Assembly: GCA_029932675.1 (NCBI GenBank)
Contig: JAOZPP010000007.1
Coordinates: 3,124-67,123, forward strand
DNA from: a bacterium
GTDB taxonomy: Bacteria > SM23-81 > DAOVCL01
Reading direction: 5' to 3'
DNA length: 64,000 bases
In this document: piece by piece, positions 2,339 through 49,181 of the stretch
Position numbering within the stretch: the first letter of the stretch is position 1
Layout of the letters: each line of letters opens with the position of its first letter
Program-made: the position numbers and the translations under genes
The notes under the pieces: model-generated
Told to the model about the DNA's origin: nothing
Seen by the model: only the letters and a program-made list of their open reading frames with translations
Database searches by the model: none

Positions 2339-2433
2339 GGAGGTGGATGGGGGCTGGTGTCCCTGCTGGACTTCAAATCCAGATCCCCCGAGAGGATCGG
2401 GGGGGTAGGTTCGATTCCTACACACCTCCGCCA
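2339..2433 (+). tRNA. selC: tRNA-Sec (anticodon TCA)
   Basis: This 95-nt selenocysteine tRNA has a 5-bp anticodon stem (CTGGA/TCCAG) closing the loop CTTCAAA with anticodon TCA. A long variable arm has seven pairs around CCCCCGA/TCGGGGG. The T arm is GTAGG-TTCGATT-CCTAC, and the acceptor GGAGGTG pairs with CACCTCC, followed by discriminator G and an encoded CCA. The eighth acceptor pair typical of bacterial tRNA-Sec would be G opposite A, a mismatch. selB begins 43 bp downstream. It reads UGA as selenocysteine, which the HdrA gene at 4599-7001 requires. Confidence 0.96.
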
Positions 2434-2476: not shown

Positions 2477-4315
2477 ATGGGAGTGATAATCGGGACAGCC
2501 GGCCATGTCGATCATGGGAAGACAGAGCTGATCAAGGCTTTGACCCACATCGATACTGATAGACTAAAGGAAGAGAAGGAAAGAGAAATATCAATCGAAT
2601 TAGGGTTTGCATGGATTGACCTTCCAAAATCTGGCAGGGTGGGAATAATAGATGTGCCCGGGCATGTGAGGTTCTTAAAGAACATGCTTGCCGGAACGGG
2701 GGGGGTAGATGTGACATTGCTCGTTGTAGCCGCTGATGAGGGGATAATGCCGCAGACAAGGGAACACTTTGAGATCATGAGACTGTTAGGGGTGGGGAAT
2801 ATGGTGGTAGCAGTAACCAAGAAAGATCTCGTGGATGAGGAGACCATTGAGCTGGTGAAAGGGGAAATAGGAGAATTCCTCGCTGGAACCCCCTTCGCTG
2901 GTTGCCCTGTGATCATTACCTCTTCCCAGGCCGGCGATGGATTGGATGAACTTAAGGAAGAATTGGACAAGGTCTGTGCAAAGTTGCCCCCAAAACCCCA
3001 GATCGATATATCTAGGCTCTTTGTGGACAGGGCATTCGAAATGAAGGGTTTTGGCACAGTGGTCACCGGAACTCTGGTATCGGGGAAGATCAGTCAAGAC
3101 GATCAACTATTCATCTACCCAAGAGGGATAAGGACAAGGGTCAGGGGGGTTCAGGTTCATTATGAGCGGAGGAGGGAGGCCTGGGCTGGCGAACGGGTAG
3201 CGCTTAACCTCGCAGGAGTGAAGAGAGACCAGGTGAGACGGGGCTGCGTAATTTCAGGGGTAGAATACCTTAAACCCACAAAGAGGGTCACCATAAGCCT
3301 AGAGATCCTCCCTTCAGTAAAGGTCCTTAAGGATTGGACAAGGGTGAGGCTCTACAGCGGGAGCGCGGAGCTTTTCGGCCGTATCTCCCTGTTAGGGTCA
3401 AATGAAAGAAGAGGCGGAGAGAGAACCTTTGCCCAGATCTTTCTGGAACAACCCCATACCTTCCTGGTCGGAGACAGATTCGTGCTCAGAAACTATTCTC
3501 CCCTCTGGCTCATTGGTGGTGGAAAGATACTGGGCACATCATCTCAGAGGCTCAAGAAAACGGATAGATCCATTCTCCCCCAGCTTGAGGCCATAGAGAT
3601 TGGGGGAGCAGAGGCGGCGGTGCTCCTGGAGTTGGAGGACAGTCCCCAAAGGGAAGAGCAACTGCTGAGCAAAATCGGGCTCTCTTCGATGAGGCTGAGG
3701 AAGATCATCAACAAACTTGAAACAGAGGGGAAGGTAATTACTTTAAACCACTACCTTATTGCCAAAAAGGCCTTTACAAATCTAAAGAAGAACATCCTTT
3801 CCCTACTCCATAAATACTATGAAAAACATCCTTTGAGGCTCTATATGAAACGGAGAGAACTTGCGCAGAGGCTCTCCCTGTCTAAGGAGGTCCTCAACGA
3901 CCTCCTCCCCTTTATTGAGGAGCTCCGCTGCGAGGAGGAAAGGGTCTCCCTCAAAGGGTATAAACCTCAGTGGAAGGATGAGGAACTGACCAAGCGGAAG
4001 GCCATCGAAGAGGAGTTCTTGAGCTCAGGTTTCCAACCGCCAAAACCGGAAGTCAACGAAATTTTCAAAACCCTCCTTGAGGATGGGACTATTGTAAAGA
4101 TAGGGGAGGACATATTCCTTCACAGGGAGATGCTGCGGAGGGGAAAGGAGAAGGTAGTGGCACTCATCAGAGATAGGGGTGAGGCAACGATCAGCGAGAT
4201 AAAGGACGTCCTCTGCACATCCCGAAAATATACGCTCCCCTTTGTGCAATACTTAGATAGTCTGGGGGTTACCAAAAGGATCGGCGATAAGAGGGTGCTG
4301 GCCAGGGAGGAATAG
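2477..4315 (+). CDS. selB: selenocysteine-specific elongation factor SelB
   Basis: A 612-residue translational GTPase that delivers Sec-tRNA to UGA codons followed by a SECIS hairpin. The N-terminal EF-Tu-like domain has the P-loop GHVDHGKT (residues 9-16), the switch motif DVPGH, and the base-recognition motif TKKD. Two beta-barrel domains follow, and the C-terminal third shows winged-helix repeats that bind SECIS RNA. The frame opens further upstream inside the tRNA gene, but the ATG at 2477 (MGVIIGTAGHVDHGK) fits the family N-terminus and has an AAGGAATAAGG-like ribosome site. The order promoter-selC-selB is compact. Length is normal for the family. Confidence 0.96.
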   Translation: MGVIIGTAGHVDHGKTELIKALTHIDTDRLKEEKEREISIELGFAWIDLPKSGRVGIIDVPGHVRFLKNMLAGTGGVDVTLLVVAADEGIMPQTREHFEIMRLLGVGNMVVAVTKKDLVDEETIELVKGEIGEFLAGTPFAGCPVIITSSQAGDGLDELKEELDKVCAKLPPKPQIDISRLFVDRAFEMKGFGTVVTGTLVSGKISQDDQLFIYPRGIRTRVRGVQVHYERRREAWAGERVALNLAGVKRDQVRRGCVISGVEYLKPTKRVTISLEILPSVKVLKDWTRVRLYSGSAELFGRISLLGSNERRGGERTFAQIFLEQPHTFLVGDRFVLRNYSPLWLIGGGKILGTSSQRLKKTDRSILPQLEAIEIGGAEAAVLLELEDSPQREEQLLSKIGLSSMRLRKIINKLETEGKVITLNHYLIAKKAFTNLKKNILSLLHKYYEKHPLRLYMKRRELAQRLSLSKEVLNDLLPFIEELRCEEERVSLKGYKPQWKDEELTKRKAIEEEFLSSGFQPPKPEVNEIFKTLLEDGTIVKIGEDIFLHREMLRRGKEKVVALIRDRGEATISEIKDVLCTSRKYTLPFVQYLDSLGVTKRIGDKRVLAREE

Positions 4316-4598: not shown

Positions 4599-7001
4599 CT
4601 ATTTCCCTTTCTCCTCTGATAGAATCCTCATGGTCTCCTCTATCTCCTCCCTTGTTACCGTCTTTCTCAGCTCCTCAACGGCATGCATTACCCTCGTCCA
4701 TTTTACTGCCTCTGCGGCGGAGATCCACTCGAGCTGTAGCCTCTCCGGCCTGATCCCCTTTTGTTCCATCTTATCCCACAACTTCTCCACCCTTTTCTGT
4801 GTCCACCTGTTTGCATCTATATAATGACAATCAGCGAAGTGACATCCGGAGATGAGCACCACTGGGGCTCCCTTCCTAAAGGCGTGCCAAACGAATTTCT
4901 CAGCCACCCTCCCACTACACATCGTCCTAATCACCCTTCCACTTGGGGGATACTGCATCCGGGAGAGCCCGGCTAGGTCTGCCCCCCCGTATGAGCACCA
5001 GTTACAGGCAAAGATACAAACCTTCTCCTCAGGTCTTTCCTCAAACATCGCATCTATCATTGCTATTATCTGGTCATCGGTGAAATGTCTCATCCTCAAG
5101 GCATCGAACCTACACTCCGCCCCACAGGTGCCACAACCCTTACAGGCCGCCTCGACAATTGAGGCAGGGGTTTTGGCCTTCCTATCCACAGTTATTGAAC
5201 CGTAAGGACAAACATCAACACATATTCCACAGGCCTTGCACAGATCGGGAATGACCTCCGAAGTAATCGCCTCCACCTTTACCTTACCGGCGGAAAGGAG
5301 CGTCTCCGCCCTTGATGCCGCTCCCGATGCCTGGATAACAGATGCCTTAATGTCTTTGGGCGATTCACAACACCCAGCTAAGAATACCCCGCCTGTCGGC
5401 GCATCAATGGGGTTTAACTGATAATGGGTCTCCATAAGGAAGCCATCTGCCGCCTTAGAAAGGGTAAGGAGCCTTTGCACCGTTTCGGTATCCGGTCTGG
5501 GAATCACTCCTATGGAGAGCACAACCATCTCGAACTCATGCCTTTGGATCTTGCCAGTTGTTGTATTCTCCACTGTGAGGACCAGATTTCTTGTCTTTCG
5601 ATCCTCAACGATATCGCCAGGAATGCCCCTTATATACTTAACCCCCACTTCTTTGCTCCGCTTATAGAGCTCTTCGTAGCCCTTCCCAAAGGCTCGTATA
5701 TCCATATAAAAGACCGTGCAGTCAATTTCGGGGTGATGTTCCTTGAGATAAAGGGTATCTTTAATAGTATTCATACAACAGATGTTGCTGCAATAGGGGT
5801 TGCCACGCCTCTCCGCCCTTGAGCCCACACACTGAACGAAGGCAATGCTCTTGGGAACCTTACGGTCAGTTGGCCTTAAAAGCTCACCCCTTGTAACATA
5901 TCCTGGGCCGGTAAGGATCTCAAACTCCCAAGAGGTAATGACATTTTCGTATTTAGTGTAGCGATATTCATCAAGTATAGTAGGATCACAGACATCCATC
6001 CCTGTCGCTACAATGGCCACTCCTACATCAAGCTCTAAGATTTCATCCTTTTGATCATAGTCAATGGCCCTTGGGTCACAGACCTCTGCACATGCACCGC
6101 AGGCGATTGGATTGTTGCCGAGACAATCCTCCATATCGATGAGATAGGACGCGGGAACGGCCTGAGCAAAGGGTATATATATCGCCTTCCTCGTTGCCAG
6201 CCCGAGTTGGTGTTCATCAGGTTTGACAACAGGGCACACCTTTACACACTCACCGCAAGCGGTACAGGCTATTTCATCCACATACCTTGCCTTTTTGCGA
6301 ACCTTTACATGGAAGTTGCCGATATAGCCCGTGATCTCCTCTATCTCCGAATATGCGAGAAGTTTAATCTTAGGATGTCGACCGACATCCATCATCCTCG
6401 GACCGAGGATTCATATCGCTCAGTCCATAGTGGGGAAGGTCTTATTGATATAAGACATCAACCCACCGATGGTCGGTTCCTTCTCAACCAGATAGACTTG
6501 GTAGCCCGCGTCAGCAAGGTCCAAAGACGCCTGAATTCCAGCTATTCCTCCCCCTATAACGAGGGCGGCCTGGGTAACCGGGACCTCGAGCTCCTCTTGC
6601 GGCTCCAGGAGTCTTGCCTTAGCCACCGCTACCTTGACGATGTCCTTCGCCTTTTCAGTGGCCTTCTTCCTATCCGAATGAACCCAACTACAGTGCTCCC
6701 TGATATTTGCCATCTCAAAGAGATAGGGGTTGAGACCAGCGTCAGCGCAGCATCTCCTGAAGGTTGGCTCATGCATCCGCGGGGTGCAACTGGCAACCAC
6801 CACGCGATTTAGGTTCTTCTCCTTGATAAACCGTTTTATCTCCTGCTGGCCAGGTTCGGCACAGGTATATCTGTTCTTCACCGAGAAGACCACATTGGGA
6901 AGGGTCCTGGCCCATTCTGTAACCTCATCACAATCTACCGTGCCAGCAATATTTATCCCGCACTCACAGACGAATACTCCTATCCTCGGCTCTTCCGCCA
7001 A
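4599..7001 (-). CDS. hdrA: HdrA-MvhD fusion selenoprotein with two Sec residues
   Basis: One gene read through two in-frame UGA codons (6422-6420 and 6413-6411). The reconstructed product, about 800 residues, reads FPTMDUAIUILGPRM where the window's other complete HdrAs read for example FPTLDCSQCILTPKM; frame and homology continue on both sides. Order: N-terminal HdrA domain ([13 protein letters not shown]), FAD Rossmann motif ([11 protein letters not shown]), the UxxU site, inserted ferredoxin domain ([12 protein letters not shown]), a second flavin-fold part, C-terminal two-cluster ferredoxin ([24 protein letters not shown]), then MvhD ([24 protein letters not shown]). Two hairpins with GGUC loops follow the UGAs. 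The start is probably TTG at 7001, 8 nt after AGGAGG; a GTG at 7010 would add three residues. HdrA is the FAD subunit that bifurcates electrons; MvhD links it to a donor. The HdrD-like partner lies immediately upstream. Confidence 0.92.
6373..6390 (-). promoter_or_regulatory. SECIS-like hairpin 2 (GGUC loop)
   Basis: On the mRNA strand a perfect 7-bp stem (GGATGTC/GACATCC) closes the tetraloop GGTC. The loop begins 27 nt after the second UGA (6413-6411), within the usual bacterial range. The loop matches the GGUC core of the classical fdhF SECIS. Confidence 0.75.
6394..6410 (-). promoter_or_regulatory. SECIS-like hairpin 1 (GGUCC loop)
   Basis: On the mRNA strand a perfect 6-bp stem (ATCCTC/GAGGAT) closes the loop GGTCC. 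The loop starts 15 nt after the first UGA (6422-6420). The hairpin begins directly after the second UGA, so it best serves the first one. It is separated by 3 nt from hairpin 2. Confidence 0.75.
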
Positions 7002-7006
7002 TCCAA

Positions 7007-8179
7007 TCACCTCCTTTCCATTAGATTTTCTGCTACAAAGGTAGCTAAATCCTGAATTTCGATCTTGGCCCTTTTGGCCCTATCACGGTCAGCTTGCGCA
7101 CATTTAAAATGGATCATACATTTGGGACAAGAGGTAATCAATAAACCTGCGCCCGTTCTTCTGGCCTCTTCCAGCCGCGCCACCTGAATCTGTTTAGACC
7201 AAGTGCCACAAGTCATCCATCCACTCGTTCCGCAGCAGATAGCTTCCCTTCTATTCTTCCCCATTTCATACAATTTGTTTCCCTCAACAGCAGCTATCAC
7301 TTCCCTTGGTTCTTCATAAACCCCAGCAAATCTCCCCAATCGGCAAGGGTCTTGGAAAGTTACCTTTCTTGGTTTTCGGCCTTCGGCCTTCGGTTTTCGG
7401 AACTTCAGTTCAGGAAGGTTCTCCGATAGAAGCTGTGAAATATGGATTACCTCCACCTCCATTTTACCGACGTATTTCGGATATTCCTGCTTGAGCATAT
7501 AATAACACTCAGGGCAAGAGGTTATAACCCTCTTGGCCCCAGTGGCTTTAATTGCCTCCCAATTCAGTTGGGCCAATATCTTGAAGCTTTCCAAATCTCC
7601 GGTCCAATAGAGGTCGTGACCACAGCACCTTTCATCAGGCATTAATACCGGTGTTATCCCCAGATAGTTAAGTATCTTAACGGTACTTTTAGCGATATTG
7701 AGTAGATCGAGATCGAGGTAGGCAAAAAATGTATCAAAATAGGGAAGACAACCAACAAAATAGAGGTACTCCCCTTTCTCTGCTGTTTCGAGACCCCTCG
7801 AAAGCCAGCCTAATCTATTCTGTCGCAGCTCCGCTGAAGCCATCATCCTCATTATGGACTGGAGGGCTCCGTTATGGGAAAGAACACCCCCTTGGCCCAT
7901 TTTATGGGCTACAATCCTTAGATCCCTTATGAATTCCGGGAACCGCACATCGAAATCGCATCTCTCAAAACACAGACCACAATTCAAACAAGACCAGAGG
8001 AGTTCGTCCCTCAACAGCACATCCGTTGTTTCAAACAAGGCCTTTCGCACGGTAACTCGGGGGAGACACACCCCATTGAGAAGGGAGATGGGACATACCG
8101 AACTGCATTTACCACACTCAACGCAATTATAGGCTTTGGTTCTCTTTACTATATTCTGAATCTCTGTCTTAATTTCCAC
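7007..8179 (-). CDS. HdrD-like protein (fused HdrC-HdrB type)
   Basis: A 390-residue iron-sulfur protein. The N-terminal HdrC-like part has two [4Fe-4S] motifs ([12 protein letters not shown] and [12 protein letters not shown]). The rest has two CCG domains of HdrB type (RCCGHDLYW with TSCPECYYM, and ICCGTSGWM with TSCPKCMIH), which in the family hold noncubane clusters that reduce disulfides or related substrates. It starts with GTG at 8179, and its stop overlaps the SD region of the Sec-HdrA, so the two are translationally close. It is the likely catalytic partner of that HdrA. The linker between the two CCG domains holds a short repetitive in-frame insertion ([15 protein letters not shown] 7371-7400). 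The true substrate is unknown. Confidence 0.85.
7371..7400. repeat. in-frame TTCGG-rich repeat insertion
   Basis: A 30-bp stretch built from GGTTTTCGG and CCTTCGG units sits inside the HdrD-like gene. Related sequence lies at 36174-36203 and, more distantly, at 28631-28697 and 37269-37312. Confidence 0.55.
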
Positions 8180-8181
8180 GG

Positions 8182-10473
8182 TTACCTGGCTTTCTTTATG
8201 GCTTCTGCAAATGAGGAGATGATTTCATCGAACCTCTCCGGTTCATCAGATGACAGCCGCTCAAACTTCACCCTCTCCGCACTAATGCCCAGGGTGCGCA
8301 AAATGCTCTTGGCCCTTTGGAAGTTTTGCTCTGCCGTTTCGTTACCGCTAATATAATGACACTCCCCCTGAGGGCATCCTATCCCGATGACCCCTTCGGC
8401 CCCATTCTCAAAGGCTCTAAGAATAAGGGCTGGGCTAATCCGGCCAGAACAGATAACTCGGATTACCCTAAGACCAGCGACTTCCTCCACATCTTCTATC
8501 AAGTTATATACCCAGTTACAGACAAAACAGACTATTCCCTTCTTGGTTAAGGACTGCTCAACAAAGCGATTAATCCGGCCATCACTGTAATGGCCCATCG
8601 TTATAGCACTCGATGGACAAATAGTCGCACAGACGCCACATCCCTTGCATAGGGCTTGGTCAATAATGGAGATCTTTACCCCATTCTCCTGCTCATATAA
8701 TTGGGGAGCGGAATAGTCACAGATCTCCACACAATCCCCACAGCCCCGACAGAGGTCATCCCTTACCTTAGCAATTACGGGCTCCACTATAACGGGATAA
8801 CCCTCCCCCTTAGCCCAGGACAATTCACCTTGTAGGGGTTCGTTGCTTAGAGGGAATTGAGCATAATCAACAGGGACCCTTAGCAATAGACCAGATGCCT
8901 CACCTGGGATGGTCAAGGCCACCAATCTCTTATCACAGTTGGGAGTACATTCAGCACATTCAAAACAGAGACCACACCTTAAACATCTCGTTGATTCCTC
9001 CACTGCTCTTTTTTTGGCAATCCCCAGCTCAACCTCCTTAAAACTCCTCCTCTTCTGGAGGGAAAGTTTACGCATCTGTGCCCTTTCCTTCTTTCCCTTT
9101 GGTTGGGTTGGTATTTCGAATTCCACCCTCTCCCTTGGTTTAGCTTCGTCCCTTAGTGGCTTACCCTGAAGGTACCTATCAATTGACCTTGCCGCTAAAT
9201 GGCCTGCTGCTATAGCCTCAATCACCGTCCTGGGACCGGTGACGCAATCACCGCCGGCAAAGATACCTGGGAGATTGGTGGCTAGGGTTTCCTGATCAAC
9301 AAGGAATGAATTCCATTTTGATATCTTTAAGCCGTGTACCTTTGGCAGCCAGGATAGATCCGGCTCCTGGCTGATAGCAGGGATTATTGTGTCCGCCTCT
9401 ATCTGGAACTCAGATCCCTTAATGGAAACCGGGCGCCTTCTACCACTAGAATCTGGTGGCCCCAACCTGTTTCTTATACATTTCATACCAACTACTTTGC
9501 CATCTTCGCCTATTATCTGCACAGGGGAAGCCAGGTAGTGCATCTTAACCCCTTCCCTCTCCGCTTCCTCAACTTCCCATGCGTTAGCAGGCATCTCCCT
9601 CCTCGATCTTCTGTAGACGATATGGACGTTAGAGCCCAGTCTAAGCGCTGTTCTGGCTGAATCAATGGCCGCATTTCCTCCCCCGATTACCACGACCTTC
9701 TTCCCGATCTTCGCCTTCCCCGTCAGGTTTACTGCCCGAAGAAAGGTAATACAGTCCAGAAAACCCTCAAATTCATCTTCCCCCGGGATTCTAAGTTTTA
9801 AGCCCTTGTGCGCGCCAACGGCGATAAATATGGCCCCATAACCCTGTCTCTGCAGCTTATTAAGATCTCTGATTCTGGTATTCAGTTCGATTTTAACCCC
9901 GAGCTCCCTTATGGCGTCGATCTCGGTTTTTATGATCTCCCTGGGAAGTCTGTATTCAGGGATACCAGTGTATAACATCCCCCCGGCAACTGGCAATTCC
10001 TCAAATACAGTAACCCTGTATCCTAACCTGACCAAATCATGGGCAGCAGTCAAACCGGCTGGACCTGAACCAATAACGGCTATCTTCTCCCTTCTGCTGC
10101 TTTTAATGGGCTCATTTTTGATCCTCCCCTTGTTGAGCTCATAATCAGCCAAGAATCTCTTCAGGGCACAGATAGCAAGCGCTTGATCGACCTCGTTGCG
10201 GCGACACTCCGTTTCACAGGGATGGACACATACCCGTCCACAAATCCCTGGAAAAGGGTTGTCCCTCTTGACCACTTCGAGGGCTTTCTCAAACTTGCCC
10301 ACGGATATTAACCCCAAATAGGCCTTCACATCTGTATCTATCGGACAGCCCACTTTGCACTTCGATGGCTCTATTTTTCGAATAGGATATCTACCCCGAC
10401 CTATCTGGGGAAACTGAAGATAGACCTCTTTTGTCTTGAGCGCAGTGATGATGTCTGCAGTAGACGTTTTCAT
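8182..10473 (-). CDS. GltD-type NAD(P)H oxidoreductase fused to ferredoxin and MvhD domains
   Basis: A 763-residue fusion. The N-terminal cysteine-rich domain and two dinucleotide folds match the glutamate synthase small subunit/NfnB family: FAD motif IGSGPAGLTAAHD near residue 135 and NAD(P)H motif IGGGNAAIDSAR near 265. A CLRCGLCFECAEC cluster region follows, then a two-cluster ferredoxin (CRGCGDCVEICD, CKGCGVCATICP). The last ~130 residues are MvhD-like (ICSGRI, GCPQGECHY), but the usual CNWC is CNWV. It lies between the 2-oxoacid oxidoreductase genes and the HdrD-like/Sec-HdrA genes. I infer that it transfers electrons between NAD(P)H or ferredoxin and that HdrA. No glutamate synthase large subunit is nearby. 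Confidence 0.85.
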   Translation of the reverse strand: MKTSTADIITALKTKEVYLQFPQIGRGRYPIRKIEPSKCKVGCPIDTDVKAYLGLISVGKFEKALEVVKRDNPFPGICGRVCVHPCETECRRNEVDQALAICALKRFLADYELNKGRIKNEPIKSSRREKIAVIGSGPAGLTAAHDLVRLGYRVTVFEELPVAGGMLYTGIPEYRLPREIIKTEIDAIRELGVKIELNTRIRDLNKLQRQGYGAIFIAVGAHKGLKLRIPGEDEFEGFLDCITFLRAVNLTGKAKIGKKVVVIGGGNAAIDSARTALRLGSNVHIVYRRSRREMPANAWEVEEAEREGVKMHYLASPVQIIGEDGKVVGMKCIRNRLGPPDSSGRRRPVSIKGSEFQIEADTIIPAISQEPDLSWLPKVHGLKISKWNSFLVDQETLATNLPGIFAGGDCVTGPRTVIEAIAAGHLAARSIDRYLQGKPLRDEAKPRERVEFEIPTQPKGKKERAQMRKLSLQKRRSFKEVELGIAKKRAVEESTRCLRCGLCFECAECTPNCDKRLVALTIPGEASGLLLRVPVDYAQFPLSNEPLQGELSWAKGEGYPVIVEPVIAKVRDDLCRGCGDCVEICDYSAPQLYEQENGVKISIIDQALCKGCGVCATICPSSAITMGHYSDGRINRFVEQSLTKKGIVCFVCNWVYNLIEDVEEVAGLRVIRVICSGRISPALILRAFENGAEGVIGIGCPQGECHYISGNETAEQNFQRAKSILRTLGISAERVKFERLSSDEPERFDEIISSFAEAIKKAR

Positions 10474-10476
10474 CCT

Positions 10477-10782
10477 CTAACCTTTATTCCCTCTTGGAAC
10501 TTGCTGCCCACCCTTCCCCTCCTTCTCCCCTTTGGCTGTGGACCATATAGCAAACTCTGGACAGATCATCTCGCAAAGCCCGCAATTCACGCAGTTCTCG
10601 GGGTTTTTCACCCGCGGAGGGTGATAGCCCTTAGAGTTGAACTCCTCTGACATCTCCAGCACATCCCTTGGGCAGAACTCTACACAGAAACCGCACCCCT
10701 TGCATCTGTCCTTTATTATATGAACTTTGCCCTTGGGGACTTCTATTTTGTCTAAGTCATAAGGTGTTCGCCAGTACTTCAC
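10477..10782 (-). CDS. korD: 2-oxoacid:ferredoxin oxidoreductase delta subunit (ferredoxin)
   Basis: A 101-residue two-cluster ferredoxin with CKGCGFCVEFCP and CVNCGLCEMICP motifs. It starts at GTG 10782 and ends with a short basic tail. It is the last gene of the Kor cluster, matching the delta subunit that passes electrons from the catalytic beta-subunit cluster to external ferredoxin. The spacer to the gamma gene is 10 bp. Confidence 0.85.
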   Translation of the reverse strand: MKYWRTPYDLDKIEVPKGKVHIIKDRCKGCGFCVEFCPRDVLEMSEEFNSKGYHPPRVKNPENCVNCGLCEMICPEFAIWSTAKGEKEGKGGQQVPRGNKG

Positions 10783-10792
10783 GCTTGGATTC

Positions 10793-11320
10793 CTATCTCT
10801 TATAATGGTATCCCCTGTTAAATGCCTCCAAGTTAAGCTTCACAAACCTTTTGGGTACTGAATCTGCAACTGCCTTTTCCATTCCTTCCTTAGAGACCAA
10901 TTTGGTGACTGCAGTGAAGAAACCGAGCATAACCACATTTGCGATGATCCTGTTTCCCAACTCCTCGGCAAATCTTGTGGCGGGAATGGAAAAGACCTTA
11001 ATCCTGCCCCGAGGCGGCTTGGGCTTCACCAAGTCCTCATCTATCAGAAGCAATCCTTCCTCACTCAACTCCGGCTCAAACTTCTCATAACCTGCTTGAG
11101 ACATAGCCACAAGGACATCCGATACCGTAACATAAGGATAGAGCACCTTGCTCTCCGAAAGCACCAATTGGGAACTACAAGCTCCACCTCTTGCCTCTGG
11201 TCCAAATGATTGATTCATAGTGGCGAACTTATTGTCATAAATGGCGGCAGCCTTCCCAACGATGATCCCTGATCTAATGATACCTTGCCCTCCGTAACCA
11301 GCAAATCTAATCTCAGCCAT
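10793..11320 (-). CDS. korC: 2-oxoacid:ferredoxin oxidoreductase gamma subunit
   Basis: A 175-residue protein with the family signature RFAGYGGQGIIRSG at its N-terminus and GPEARGGACSSQL further on. The gamma subunit is needed for assembly and CoA-dependent turnover in OFOR enzymes. I chose ATG 11320 (MAEIRFAGYGG) because GGGGGTTAAG precedes it and the homologous N-terminus begins there; the frame opens ten codons earlier. It follows the degenerate beta gene and precedes the ferredoxin gene. One gamma and one delta serve two alpha and two beta genes. Confidence 0.88.
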   Translation of the reverse strand: MAEIRFAGYGGQGIIRSGIIVGKAAAIYDNKFATMNQSFGPEARGGACSSQLVLSESKVLYPYVTVSDVLVAMSQAGYEKFEPELSEEGLLLIDEDLVKPKPPRGRIKVFSIPATRFAEELGNRIIANVVMLGFFTAVTKLVSKEGMEKAVADSVPKRFVKLNLEAFNRGYHYKR

Positions 11321-11321
11321 C

Positions 11322-12083
11322 TTAACCCCCATATGGGATGAACTCATCACCCAATACGCTACTCAGTTGAGCATTGTATGAATCGATGAAAGTAGGCCGC
11401 TCTTTGTCCGTAAATTTCCCTACCACAATCTTCCCTTCAGGGGTAATCCCTACGTTCCTTGGGTCTTCACCGTCTCTGATCACCGAATTTTCGTAGTAGA
11501 AGTTCACCAAATCAGATTCAATCTCCTTAATCCTTCTGTAATAATTTGGCCCTGGTAAGAGGACTTCAATCACACAAAACCCCCGCTTCTTCAAAGCTTC
11601 GGAAACAGAGAGAGTAAGTTCATCCGTATGCAAAGCCGTCCATCTTGCCGTATAAATGGCACCGCAAGAATTGGCGAGATGGGGCACATTAAAGGGTTCC
11701 TCAAAAGTAGAATAAGGAGAGAACGATGGAGGGATTGAAGGAGCTAATTCTCCCGCTATCTTCCTATAGACAAAATTGTTCACACATATAACAAGGAGAT
11801 CCATATTTCTCCTTCCCGCATGCACAAAATGGTTTCCCCCTAGGGTCACGAGATCGCCAATGATTGGAACTACCTGGAGAGCGGGATTACCCAATTTTAG
11901 CCCTGTCCCAAAAGCGATAGCCCGTCCCCGAATTGTATGAAAGAAGTCGATATGGAGGTGATTAACAACTCCAGGATCAAAGGGGATATCAGACACCACA
12001 GAGACCTTTATTGGATCCACCCCTGATCTCTCTATCCCCTTAGCGAAGGCAGTTATAAATGGGTTCATTTCGCCTCTTCCCAT
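11322..12083 (-). CDS. korB2: degenerate KorB paralogue lacking cluster and TPP motifs
   Basis: A 253-residue beta-subunit homologue, clearly related to the intact copy at 13341-14195 (shared HTxxGRAIAF, GGNHFxHA, VICVNNF, ARWTALH). Compared with that copy it lacks the N-terminal CPGC region. The GIGCTGR site is replaced by SDIPFDPG (residues 31-38), GDGD by IGD, MTGGQ by KIAGE (108-112), and the fourth Cys site SPCAMYY by LPGPNYY. All four [4Fe-4S] ligands and the TPP/Mg motifs are therefore gone, yet the frame is intact and the scaffold well conserved. It is probably a structural or regulatory pseudo-subunit of the Kor complex, not a pseudogene. Confidence 0.82.
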   Translation of the reverse strand: MGRGEMNPFITAFAKGIERSGVDPIKVSVVSDIPFDPGVVNHLHIDFFHTIRGRAIAFGTGLKLGNPALQVVPIIGDLVTLGGNHFVHAGRRNMDLLVICVNNFVYRKIAGELAPSIPPSFSPYSTFEEPFNVPHLANSCGAIYTARWTALHTDELTLSVSEALKKRGFCVIEVLLPGPNYYRRIKEIESDLVNFYYENSVIRDGEDPRNVGITPEGKIVVGKFTDKERPTFIDSYNAQLSSVLGDEFIPYGG

Positions 12084-12086
12084 CGA

Positions 12087-13328
12087 TTACTCACTTAGCT
12101 TAATCCTCTCCTCAAAGACCAACCTCTCCAATCTCGTCTTCTGTTCTATGACCCCTTCAACCCTCCCCTCCAATCTCCTCGCATATTCAATAGCATTATA
12201 TATGTCATCGGGATGGTGAACTCCCGCCCCGCCGTGGGGAACAAGGATAACATTAGCCATTCCATGACTACAGCGCTCCACTTCAAAAGCAATCTGCCCA
12301 TAATTTATCTCTGGGACCACAAAGGCCTTTACTTTTTTGGCCAGTTCAGCTATCCTCTCGTCGGGGAAAGGCCAGACTGTGACCAGCCTGAGGCTACCTA
12401 CCCTGATCCCCTCTTCCCTAGCCATCTCAATCCCCCTTACCGCAACCCTCGAAGATATCCCATAGGAGATAACAACAACTTCCGCATCTTCTAACCCTTC
12501 TTCCTTTAACTCAATAATCTTATCCTTGTTAAGCCTAATCTTGTCCACAAGTCGTTTGGTATAAACAGATTGACACCCCCCATTTTCTGCTGGATAACCC
12601 CTTTCATCATGAGTTAGCCCGGAGATATACAGGTTATACCCATCACCTGCCTTAGCCATTTTAGGGATAAGGTCCTCATCTGGCTTGAATGGTAGATACT
12701 TATCCTTTGGACCAGCATAGAACCTTCTGGGCTCAATCTCAATTTCATCAGCGGGGGGGATAACTACCTTCTCTGTCATATGACCCACGCATTCATCAGA
12801 CATTATCATCACAGGACAGCGATACCTCTCCGCTAAATTGAACGCCTTAATTGTGTAATCAAATAGCTCCTGCGGGGAATCGGGAGATAAGGCGATAAGC
12901 TCATAGTCCCCATGCGACCCCCAGCGTGACTGCATCATATCCGCTTGTCCTGTTTTGGTCGGAACCCCGGTTGATGGCCCCCCTCGTTGGATGTTTAACA
13001 GAACAAATGGGGTCTCCAACATCGCCCCAAATCCAATAGTCTCCATCATAAGGGAGTAGCCCGGCCCAGAAGTTATAGTCATTGACTTAACTCCTGCCCA
13101 GGAAGCCCCTACTACAGCAGCTATGGAACCTAATTCATCCTCCATTTGAATAAACATCGCCCCCGCTTTAGGAGCTATGCGGGCAAACGCCTCTGCTGCT
13201 TCAGTTGATGGTGTAATTGGATAGCCGGCCACAAACTTACATCCGGCCGCTAAAGCACCATAACCAGATGCGACATCACCGTCTATATAATATACACCTG
13301 TATTTACATCCTTTGGATTAGCTCTCAT
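12087..13328 (-). CDS. korA2: 2-oxoacid:ferredoxin oxidoreductase alpha subunit, canonical copy
   Basis: A 413-residue alpha subunit. It has the canonical substrate and TPP-contacting motifs: GYPITPSTEAAE near residue 35, MEDELGSIAAVVGAS, and NIQRGGPSTGVPTKTGQAD near 112. With KorB it forms the active site that oxidises 2-oxoglutarate (or another 2-oxoacid) to the acyl-CoA with ferredoxin as acceptor, or the reverse. It lies between an intact beta gene and a degenerate one, with 12-bp and 3-bp spacers. The 2-oxoglutarate assignment rests on its linkage to SucCD; pyruvate or branched-chain oxoacids are not excluded. Confidence 0.88.
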   Translation of the reverse strand: MRANPKDVNTGVYYIDGDVASGYGALAAGCKFVAGYPITPSTEAAEAFARIAPKAGAMFIQMEDELGSIAAVVGASWAGVKSMTITSGPGYSLMMETIGFGAMLETPFVLLNIQRGGPSTGVPTKTGQADMMQSRWGSHGDYELIALSPDSPQELFDYTIKAFNLAERYRCPVMIMSDECVGHMTEKVVIPPADEIEIEPRRFYAGPKDKYLPFKPDEDLIPKMAKAGDGYNLYISGLTHDERGYPAENGGCQSVYTKRLVDKIRLNKDKIIELKEEGLEDAEVVVISYGISSRVAVRGIEMAREEGIRVGSLRLVTVWPFPDERIAELAKKVKAFVVPEINYGQIAFEVERCSHGMANVILVPHGGAGVHHPDDIYNAIEYARRLEGRVEGVIEQKTRLERLVFEERIKLSE

Positions 13329-47219: not shown

Positions 47220-49181
47220 CTACTTTATGGTAACCGCTTCGCTCATCCTGAACAACTGACTATCCTGGAGGTTGCGCTGCTGGGCAGCTCCGGATGGACA
47301 GGCCGCTACACAACTGCCACAACCCTCACAGAGCACCTCATTGACCACTGCTATCCGCTTGCCCTTTATGACCTCTATCTCCCTTGCCTCGTAGGGACAC
47401 AACGGCACACACAGTCCACAACCGCTACATATGTCCTCATTCACTGTAGCCACCGCTGGGTCATGGTGTAGTTGTTCTTGGCCAAACATCTCCAGGGCCT
47501 TCGAGGCAGCACCGGAGGCTTGAGCCACAGTATCGGGGATGTCCCGCGGCGCCTGGCCACATCCAGCAAGGAATATCCCTGGGGTAAGCGTCTCCACTGG
47601 CCGCAGTTTTGGATGGGCCTCAGTGAGGAACCCATTTGTATCCACCTGAATCTTCAACTTCCGGATTAGCTCCTCCACCCCTGGGGAGGGGACGATGGCC
47701 ATTCCGAGGACAACGAGGTCGCAGCTTACCTCCAAGGGCTTTCCGGAGAGGGTGTCTGCGGCCATAATAACAAGCTCTCCATTGTTCTCATAGATCTTCG
47801 AGACCTTGCCCCTTATGTAAGTTACATGATCCTCCTCCTGGGCCCGCTGGACGAACTCCTCGTATCCCTTGCCATCCGAACGGATATCGATATAGAAGAC
47901 GATGGCCTCTCCATCAGGCACCCGGTGTTTGTAGAGCATAGCATGCTTAGTAAGATACATACAGCAGACCTTTGAACAGTAAGGCTTATGGAGTTCCGGG
48001 TCTCGTGAGCCAACACAGGAGATGAAAGCTACCCTCTTGGGAACCTTGCCATCGGAGGGGCGCCGCACCACCCCTTGGGTCGGTCCCGAGGCGGAAAGCA
48101 ACCTCTCAAATTGCAGCCCATTAATCACATCCTGATACCTCCCCCCCCCATACTCCCCTATGTTCTCCATCCCATAAAGGTCATAGCCAGTGGCCACCAC
48201 TATAGCCCCTACCTCCTCCTCGATGATCTCCTCCTGCTGTTCATAATCTATCGCCCCCGTGGGACAGAGCTTCTCACAAATGCGGCACTTCCCGGTTTGG
48301 AACCAGAGGCAATGCGCGGCATCGATCACTGGTTTGGCAGGAACAGCCTGCGGGAAGGGGATGTAGATGGCCTTCCTCTTGGCCAGCCCCTCCTCGAACT
48401 CGGAGGGAACCTCCACCGGGCACTTCTCCATACATATCCCACAGCCAATGCACTTGTCGAAGTCCACCCACCTCTTCTTTTTCCTTATCCTTACCTTGAA
48501 GTTGCCCACATATCCGGATACTTCCTCAACTTCAGAGTAGGTGTATAGCCTGATCTGCGGATGGTGACCGACCTCGACCATCTTAGGGGTGAGTATACAC
48601 TGGGAGCAGTCCAGGGTGGGGAAGGTCTCCGATAGCTGGATCATATGTCCACCAATGGAGGGCTGCTTTTCCACCAGGATCACCTCATATCCCGCGTTGG
48701 CCGTATCCAGCGCCGCCTGGATCCCAGCAATCCCCCCCCCGATGACCAAAGCCCGCTTGGTTATTGGTATAGCTATGGGAGTAAGCTCCTCATTCAGTTT
48801 GACCTTTTCGATGACCGTCTTCACGATCTTAATCGCCTTCACGGTGGCCTCGGCCCGATCGGAGTGAACCCAACTGCAATGCTCCCTGATATTGGCTATC
48901 TCACATCGATAAGGGTTTATCCCCACCCGGGCAACTGTATTCCTAAAGGTTACCTCATGCAAGGTAGGTGAACAGGAGGCGACAACCACACCATTAAGGC
49001 TCTTCTTCCTTATCCGCTCCTGGATCATCCCCTGACCGGGGTCTGAGCACATGTAGATGTAGTCCTCAGCATGAACGACACCTGGATAATCCTTTATCGC
49101 CGCAACCACCGCCTTCACATCCACCGTGGTGGCGATGTTTATCCCACAATGGCAGACAAATACACCTATCCTATTCTCCAT
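47220..49181 (-). CDS. hdrA: HdrA, canonical copy in an hdrCBA unit
   Basis: A 653-residue complete HdrA. It has the N-terminal domain (GVFVCHCGINIATT), FAD motif ([14 protein letters not shown]), site FPTLDCSQCILTPKM, inserted ferredoxin (CIGCGICMEKCP, CRICEKLCPTGA), cluster region CSKVCC, and C-terminal ferredoxin (CSGCGLCVPLCP, CEGCGSCVAACP). It overlaps hdrB by 11 bp. With HdrC and HdrB directly upstream this is the only complete hdrCBA set in the window. It can serve as the reference for comparing the six divergent HdrA genes. Confidence 0.95.
   Translation of the reverse strand: MENRIGVFVCHCGINIATTVDVKAVVAAIKDYPGVVHAEDYIYMCSDPGQGMIQERIRKKSLNGVVVASCSPTLHEVTFRNTVARVGINPYRCEIANIREHCSWVHSDRAEATVKAIKIVKTVIEKVKLNEELTPIAIPITKRALVIGGGIAGIQAALDTANAGYEVILVEKQPSIGGHMIQLSETFPTLDCSQCILTPKMVEVGHHPQIRLYTYSEVEEVSGYVGNFKVRIRKKKRWVDFDKCIGCGICMEKCPVEVPSEFEEGLAKRKAIYIPFPQAVPAKPVIDAAHCLWFQTGKCRICEKLCPTGAIDYEQQEEIIEEEVGAIVVATGYDLYGMENIGEYGGGRYQDVINGLQFERLLSASGPTQGVVRRPSDGKVPKRVAFISCVGSRDPELHKPYCSKVCCMYLTKHAMLYKHRVPDGEAIVFYIDIRSDGKGYEEFVQRAQEEDHVTYIRGKVSKIYENNGELVIMAADTLSGKPLEVSCDLVVLGMAIVPSPGVEELIRKLKIQVDTNGFLTEAHPKLRPVETLTPGIFLAGCGQAPRDIPDTVAQASGAASKALEMFGQEQLHHDPAVATVNEDICSGCGLCVPLCPYEAREIEVIKGKRIAVVNEVLCEGCGSCVAACPSGAAQQRNLQDSQLFRMSEAVTIK

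Follow-up and report, generated by a model that had tools for sequence, protein, structure and literature searches.

The locus described here raises the question whether the conserved CxxC site of an HdrA protein can be encoded by two UGA codons, both read as selenocysteine (Sec) and each provided with a SECIS element of its own. Reviews give HdrA as a CxxU protein with one Sec (PMC13188914, PMC9312934, PMC2398784), and Sec-containing HdrA has been reported from Deltaproteobacteria, Firmicutes, Methanococcales and Asgard archaea. A preliminary description of the window, i.e. the whole stretch of 64,000 nucleotides of bacterial DNA that was analyzed, rightly treated single-Sec HdrA as known, the CxxU Sec lying at the same site, and claimed two Sec codons with a hairpin each. 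Comparison across phyla supports this claim, hairpin 1 occurring only where UGA1 is. As judged from sequence, it is highly probable that double-Sec (UxxU) bacterial HdrA arose once from a CxxU form, spread between phyla and uses one SECIS per UGA.

The hdrA gene and its two UGA codons

4599..7010, minus strand: hdrA-mvhD fusion gene (HdrA2 family), 803 amino acids with both UGAs read through, matching NF040770, an FlpD/MvhD domain and 5odc_A
6420..6422, minus strand: UGA1, codon 197, predicted first Sec, aligning with Cys194 of 5odc_A
6411..6413, minus strand: UGA2, codon 200, predicted second Sec, equivalent to the known CxxU Sec and aligning with Cys197 of 5odc_A

On inspection, the minus-strand frame is free of stops from about 7079 to 4602 except for the two TGA codons, and the gene contains no frameshift and no in-frame TAA or TAG. 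The NF040770 profile (NCBIfam HdrA2) matches residues 9-790 with 1137.2 bits against a curated cut-off of 1100 and thus identifies a full-length member of the family, while the solved HdrA 5odc_A aligns over 650 residues (E=1.6e-248). The MvhD domain fused to the C-terminus (FlpD/MvhD, residues 664-780 of 803) contains Cys only and no Sec. Homology to HdrA is present on both sides of the double UGA, and the frame together with the 5odc_A and HdrA2 matches bears out the proposed pair of in-frame UGAs at the CxxC site. With both read as Sec, the site peptide is FPTMD-U-AI-U-ILGPRM (DUAIUILGPRM). All Cys columns that are at least 95% conserved in the compared HdrA set are kept in the window protein, with Sec at 197 and 200, and 49 of 49 HdrA sequences compared have Cys or Sec at both columns. 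Known CxxU HdrA has Cys in the first column and one Sec, whereas the window gene and 11 others carry UGA at this first position.

In agreement with the preliminary count, the two columns are both Cys in exactly five further HdrA modules of the window, which start near 48752, 46076, 39347, 32287 and 25975 (minus strand). HdrA-type modules are densely clustered from 24473 to 49181 (minus strand), a multi-module fusion of 1503 amino acids among them, and three HdrA-like modules (44364, 37580 and 29110) are without both of the CxxC cysteines.

UxxU homologues in other genomes

Among the genes that a protein search of relatives yielded, one had two TGAs (79% identity) and several had a single TGA. 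In addition, 84,980 species genomes were scanned with a motif pattern that required TGA in both columns. The pattern fixed the residues F/Y-P-T-x-D-U-x-x-U-I-(L/F) and, in the last two codons, the first bases, all of which are therefore conserved by construction; the third bases of these codons and everything downstream were left free. The scan returned 14 matches, 11 of which are HdrA in frame with UxxU; the homologue search suggested in the preliminary description hence added 11 genes, for a total of 12 UxxU genes in 11 genomes. The other three matches (L054, L061 and L062) were rejected as chance pattern matches without HdrA context. Gemmatimonadota are represented by CP070758.1, evidently identical with genome G061, and Cloacimonadota by three genes from two MAGs; the other sources are Neomarinimicrobiota, Stahlbacteria, one 'Deltaproteobacteria' MAG and four CSMAG bacteria. 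One Cloacimonadota MAG, RS_16_45, holds two UxxU HdrA genes on different contigs (L058 339-370; L063 6111-6142). No HdrA with UxxU was found in the literature searched, of which coverage was partial, so that an earlier mention is possible.

UGA1 might not encode Sec at all, acting instead as a stop or being read through inefficiently in a pseudogene or split gene, and the downstream ATG at 6395 could start a product of 598 amino acids. This is very unlikely, since 11 further genes from divergent genomes show the double UGA between intact flanks, the UGA1 column always holds Cys or Sec, and the frame is uninterrupted by frameshift, TAA or TAG. Although the window comes from a draft genome of 116 contigs, the chance that the double UGA is a sequencing or assembly error is negligible: separate assemblies, among them the single-contig MAG CP070758.1, have an identical 50 nt at the site, and ten more genes show the same double UGA. 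The preliminary description had named as contrary observations Cys codons at either position, relatives in which the gene is truly split, and hairpins that are not conserved; none of these was seen in the assembled sequences compared. Sec at both positions is the preferred reading of the site.

Structure of the two hairpins

6394..6410, minus strand: hairpin 1, proposed SECIS for UGA1, AUCCUCG-GUC-CGAGGAU, 7 bp, -8.1 kcal/mol, unique to the UxxU clade
6373..6390, minus strand: hairpin 2, putative SECIS for UGA2, GGAUGUC-GGUC-GACAUCC, 7 bp, -9.4 kcal/mol, common to CxxU HdrA

Folding reproduced the two perfect hairpins of the preliminary description (7 bp each), whose GGUC cores start 15 nt past UGA1 and 27 nt past UGA2, respectively. 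If the distance is measured to the apical loop closed by the 7-bp stem, hairpin 1 has a spacing of 16 nt, the lower limit of the usual range. According to the bSECIS model, the apical loop has 3-9 nt with a G in the first two positions, the stem has 4-16 bp, the distance from the UGA is 16-37 nt and the MFE is <= -7.5 (PMC13188914). The folding check of the segment placed both elements within these published constraints, hairpin 1 with loop GUC, 7 bp, 16 nt and -8.1, and hairpin 2 with loop GGUC, 7 bp, 27 nt and -9.4; binding of SelB to either is putative. When synonymous codons were resampled according to the codon usage of the gene, the hairpin-1 position gained a stem of 7 bp or more in 4.9% of draws and the hairpin-2 position in 3.8%, and both 7-bp hairpins appeared together in 0.19%. 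On sequence grounds, the pair is taken to be more than chance, with conservation as a stronger argument than resampling.

Proposed assignment of the hairpins to the UGA codons

The comparison set consisted of 12 UxxU, 17 CxxU (single-Sec homologues from the HdrA2 family) and 24 CxxC genes. All 17 single-Sec homologues are CxxU, reading DCSIU or DCAIU followed by ILGPK or ILAPK. Among the bacterial genes compared, this single-Sec HdrA (NF040770) resembles the window gene in family, CxxC site, second-Sec column and hairpin 2, but differs in having Cys in the first column, no hairpin 1 and Lys where UxxU has Arg. A CxxU subclade (L080, L081, L083 and L084) has PKA in place of PKM after Sec and retains hairpin 2.

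Hairpin 2 is present in both CxxU and UxxU genes, with 95% of cells paired in either group. A compensatory change from U-A to C-G occurs at one pair in 8 of the 17 CxxU genes, and two pairs show double changes in UxxU. Since CxxU genes have hairpin 2 alone, it is indicated that this element suffices for UGA2, and it is best read as the ancestral SECIS that goes with UGA2. In L059, from the 'Deltaproteobacteria' MAG (downstream of 7049), the hairpin-2 loop is GGGU in place of GGUC and the Arg of DVGRHP is replaced by Leu, while hairpin 1 is intact.

A perfect hairpin 1 is found in 12/12 UxxU, 0/17 CxxU and 0/24 CxxC genes. The residue that completes it is R in all 12 UxxU and K in all 17 CxxU genes; the fourth pair is broken throughout the latter because their codon at this place is AAG or AAA (Lys) instead of the AGG (Arg) of UxxU. 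In UxxU, the same-codon fractions at the hairpin-1 codons I, L, G, P and R are 1.0, 1.0, 0.70, 1.0 and 1.0 against a gene background of 0.44. The corresponding fractions for I, L, G, P and K in CxxU are 0.33, 0.51, 0.23, 0.30 and 0.78 (background 0.42), i.e. variation like background, Lys excepted. The two codons between the UGAs vary in UxxU (0.33 and 0.47). Exclusive co-occurrence with UGA1 and codon conservation together tie hairpin 1 to UGA1. Of the earlier expectation that both hairpins would be kept by compensatory changes, the part concerning hairpin 2 held; hairpin 1 is kept as well but is unvarying and shows no such changes, which leaves no room for a covariation test. As the UxxU genes form one clade, the conservation of hairpin 1 represents a single evolutionary origin sampled repeatedly.

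Alternatively, both positions could be Sec with hairpin 2 alone serving both UGAs, its loop lying 36 nt from UGA1 and hence inside the usual 16-37 nt (PMC13188914), while hairpin 1 would be a helper or have another role. This arrangement is improbable in view of the occurrence of hairpin 1 exactly with UGA1 and its absence from all 41 compared genes without UGA1; moreover, its codons are frozen in UxxU only, and a residue was changed from Lys to Arg to complete the stem. One hairpin for each UGA is the preferred assignment.

Probable origin and spread of UxxU HdrA

In a maximum-likelihood tree built with the trait site columns masked, the 12 UxxU genes form a single clade (100/99) nested in CxxU, the clade of all Sec-HdrA has support of 95/97, and CxxC genes lie outside. 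This nesting is most simply explained by a single gain of the first Sec, starting from a CxxU HdrA. The UxxU clade comprises at least five named phyla, G003, a genome of the window's own phylum, has a CxxU gene placed elsewhere in the tree, and a same-genus genome has no close HdrA2. Together, these observations point to horizontal spread of UxxU HdrA between phyla.

Selenocysteine machinery

2339..2433, plus strand: selC, tRNA-Sec
2477..4315, plus strand: selB, Sec-specific elongation factor, directly after selC, start inferred at MGVIIGTAGHVDHGK

Both selC and selB had been placed in the window by the preliminary description and were recovered there; with selA and selD, found elsewhere in the genome, they make up the full Sec-decoding set. 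Of 10 other UxxU genomes tested, 9 had SelB above the cut-off; the one without was the L064 MAG, which is possibly incomplete. A scan for in-frame UGA followed by a GGUC hairpin, covering 1.97 of 3.03 Mb, returned only the two HdrA sites as convincing. A codon-usage score alone did not recover Sec genes, a Sec formate dehydrogenase was sought and none was found, and a single-gap pattern for further hairpin-2 copies gave 0 matches in the genome, its spacing range not including hairpin 2 itself. At L205 (G000:C98, 1368-2954, minus strand), the GUPYCP (UxxC) motif of a secreted Omp28-like/thioredoxin-like protein includes an in-frame UGA, with two hairpins behind it; this protein is probably a second selenoprotein of the window's genome.

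Gene neighborhood

7007..8179, minus strand: HdrBC-like subunit (Fer4 and two CCG domains by domain search), conserved upstream neighbor
8182..10473, minus strand: NfnB/GltD-like flavoprotein fused to MvhD (domain search), conserved neighbor
10477..13328, minus strand: neighboring genes, presumably ferredoxin and 2-oxoacid:ferredoxin oxidoreductase (Kor-like) subunits, named by sequence resemblance from general knowledge

At loci with long enough flanks, UxxU genes sit downstream of an HdrBC-like gene, usually together with the NfnB/GltD-like flavoprotein carrying MvhD. The window, L051, L056 and L059 have Kor-like genes close to UxxU hdrA, and such genes likewise neighbor the CxxC sisters L065 and L066. 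The HdrBC-like gene is adjacent and conserved; electron bifurcation in an HdrABC complex is putative.

Proposed mechanism and relation to known systems

A published study reports that Cys197 of one HdrA extends to the partner HdrA and serves there as a ligand of the N-terminal Fe-S cluster (PMC9012536); it gives the organism as M. wolfeii, and its numbering is assumed to be that of the solved chain 5odc_A. For Cys194, the UGA1 column, no published role was found in the literature searched. By analogy with the published HdrA structures, Sec200 would be the inter-subunit cluster ligand and Sec197 its neighbor in the same CxxC, and the Sec pair may tune, protect or relay electrons at the N-terminal cluster.

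Sequence comparison shows that UGA2 at codon 200 has retained the ancestral hairpin 2 and that the UGA at 197 comes, in the UxxU clade only, with the SECIS-like hairpin 1, which is built into the codons after UGA2 and includes the Lys-to-Arg change. In the proposed mechanism, the ribosome would read UGA1 with SelB-Sec-tRNA on hairpin 1, unwind this hairpin over the next three codons and then read UGA2 with SelB on hairpin 2. In the protein, the Sec200 selenolate would reach across the HdrA dimer and act as a ligand of the N-terminal [4Fe-4S] cluster, as suggested by the published structures, and the pair could tune or protect the electron-transfer site of an HdrABC-MvhD complex whose probable partners are a 2-oxoacid:ferredoxin oxidoreductase and a pyridine-nucleotide flavoprotein. 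The balance tips slightly towards the full combination, namely two codon-dedicated SECIS elements, the first directly behind UGA2, used in relay by one ribosome for UGAs nine nt apart, and a Sec pair acting as selenolate ligand and neighboring selenol at the Fe-S cluster bridging the HdrA dimer, a natural double-selenium electron-transfer site.

UxxU also occurs in other prokaryotic families, i.e. a Prx-like thiol:disulfide oxidoreductase, a putative mercuric reductase/metal-binding protein and an FmdB-like regulator (PMC13188914), which are unrelated to HdrA; a statement on one SECIS per UGA in these families was not found in the literature searched. In archaea, FrhD/MvhD/VhuD, a partner subunit of HdrA, can likewise hold more than one Sec (PMC13188914), but archaeal SECIS elements are mostly in the 3'-UTR, in contrast to the local hairpin downstream of each UGA in the window gene. 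In HdrA as previously described, the site holds at most one Sec.

Standard annotation would split or truncate UxxU hdrA genes. Both Sec residues of this flavin-based electron-bifurcating enzyme would lie at the reported cluster-ligand site. The UxxU genes would offer a clean natural case of a second Sec gained together with its own SECIS, and they open to experiment the question of how SelB and the ribosome cope with UGAs that are nine bases apart and followed by two hairpins in a row.
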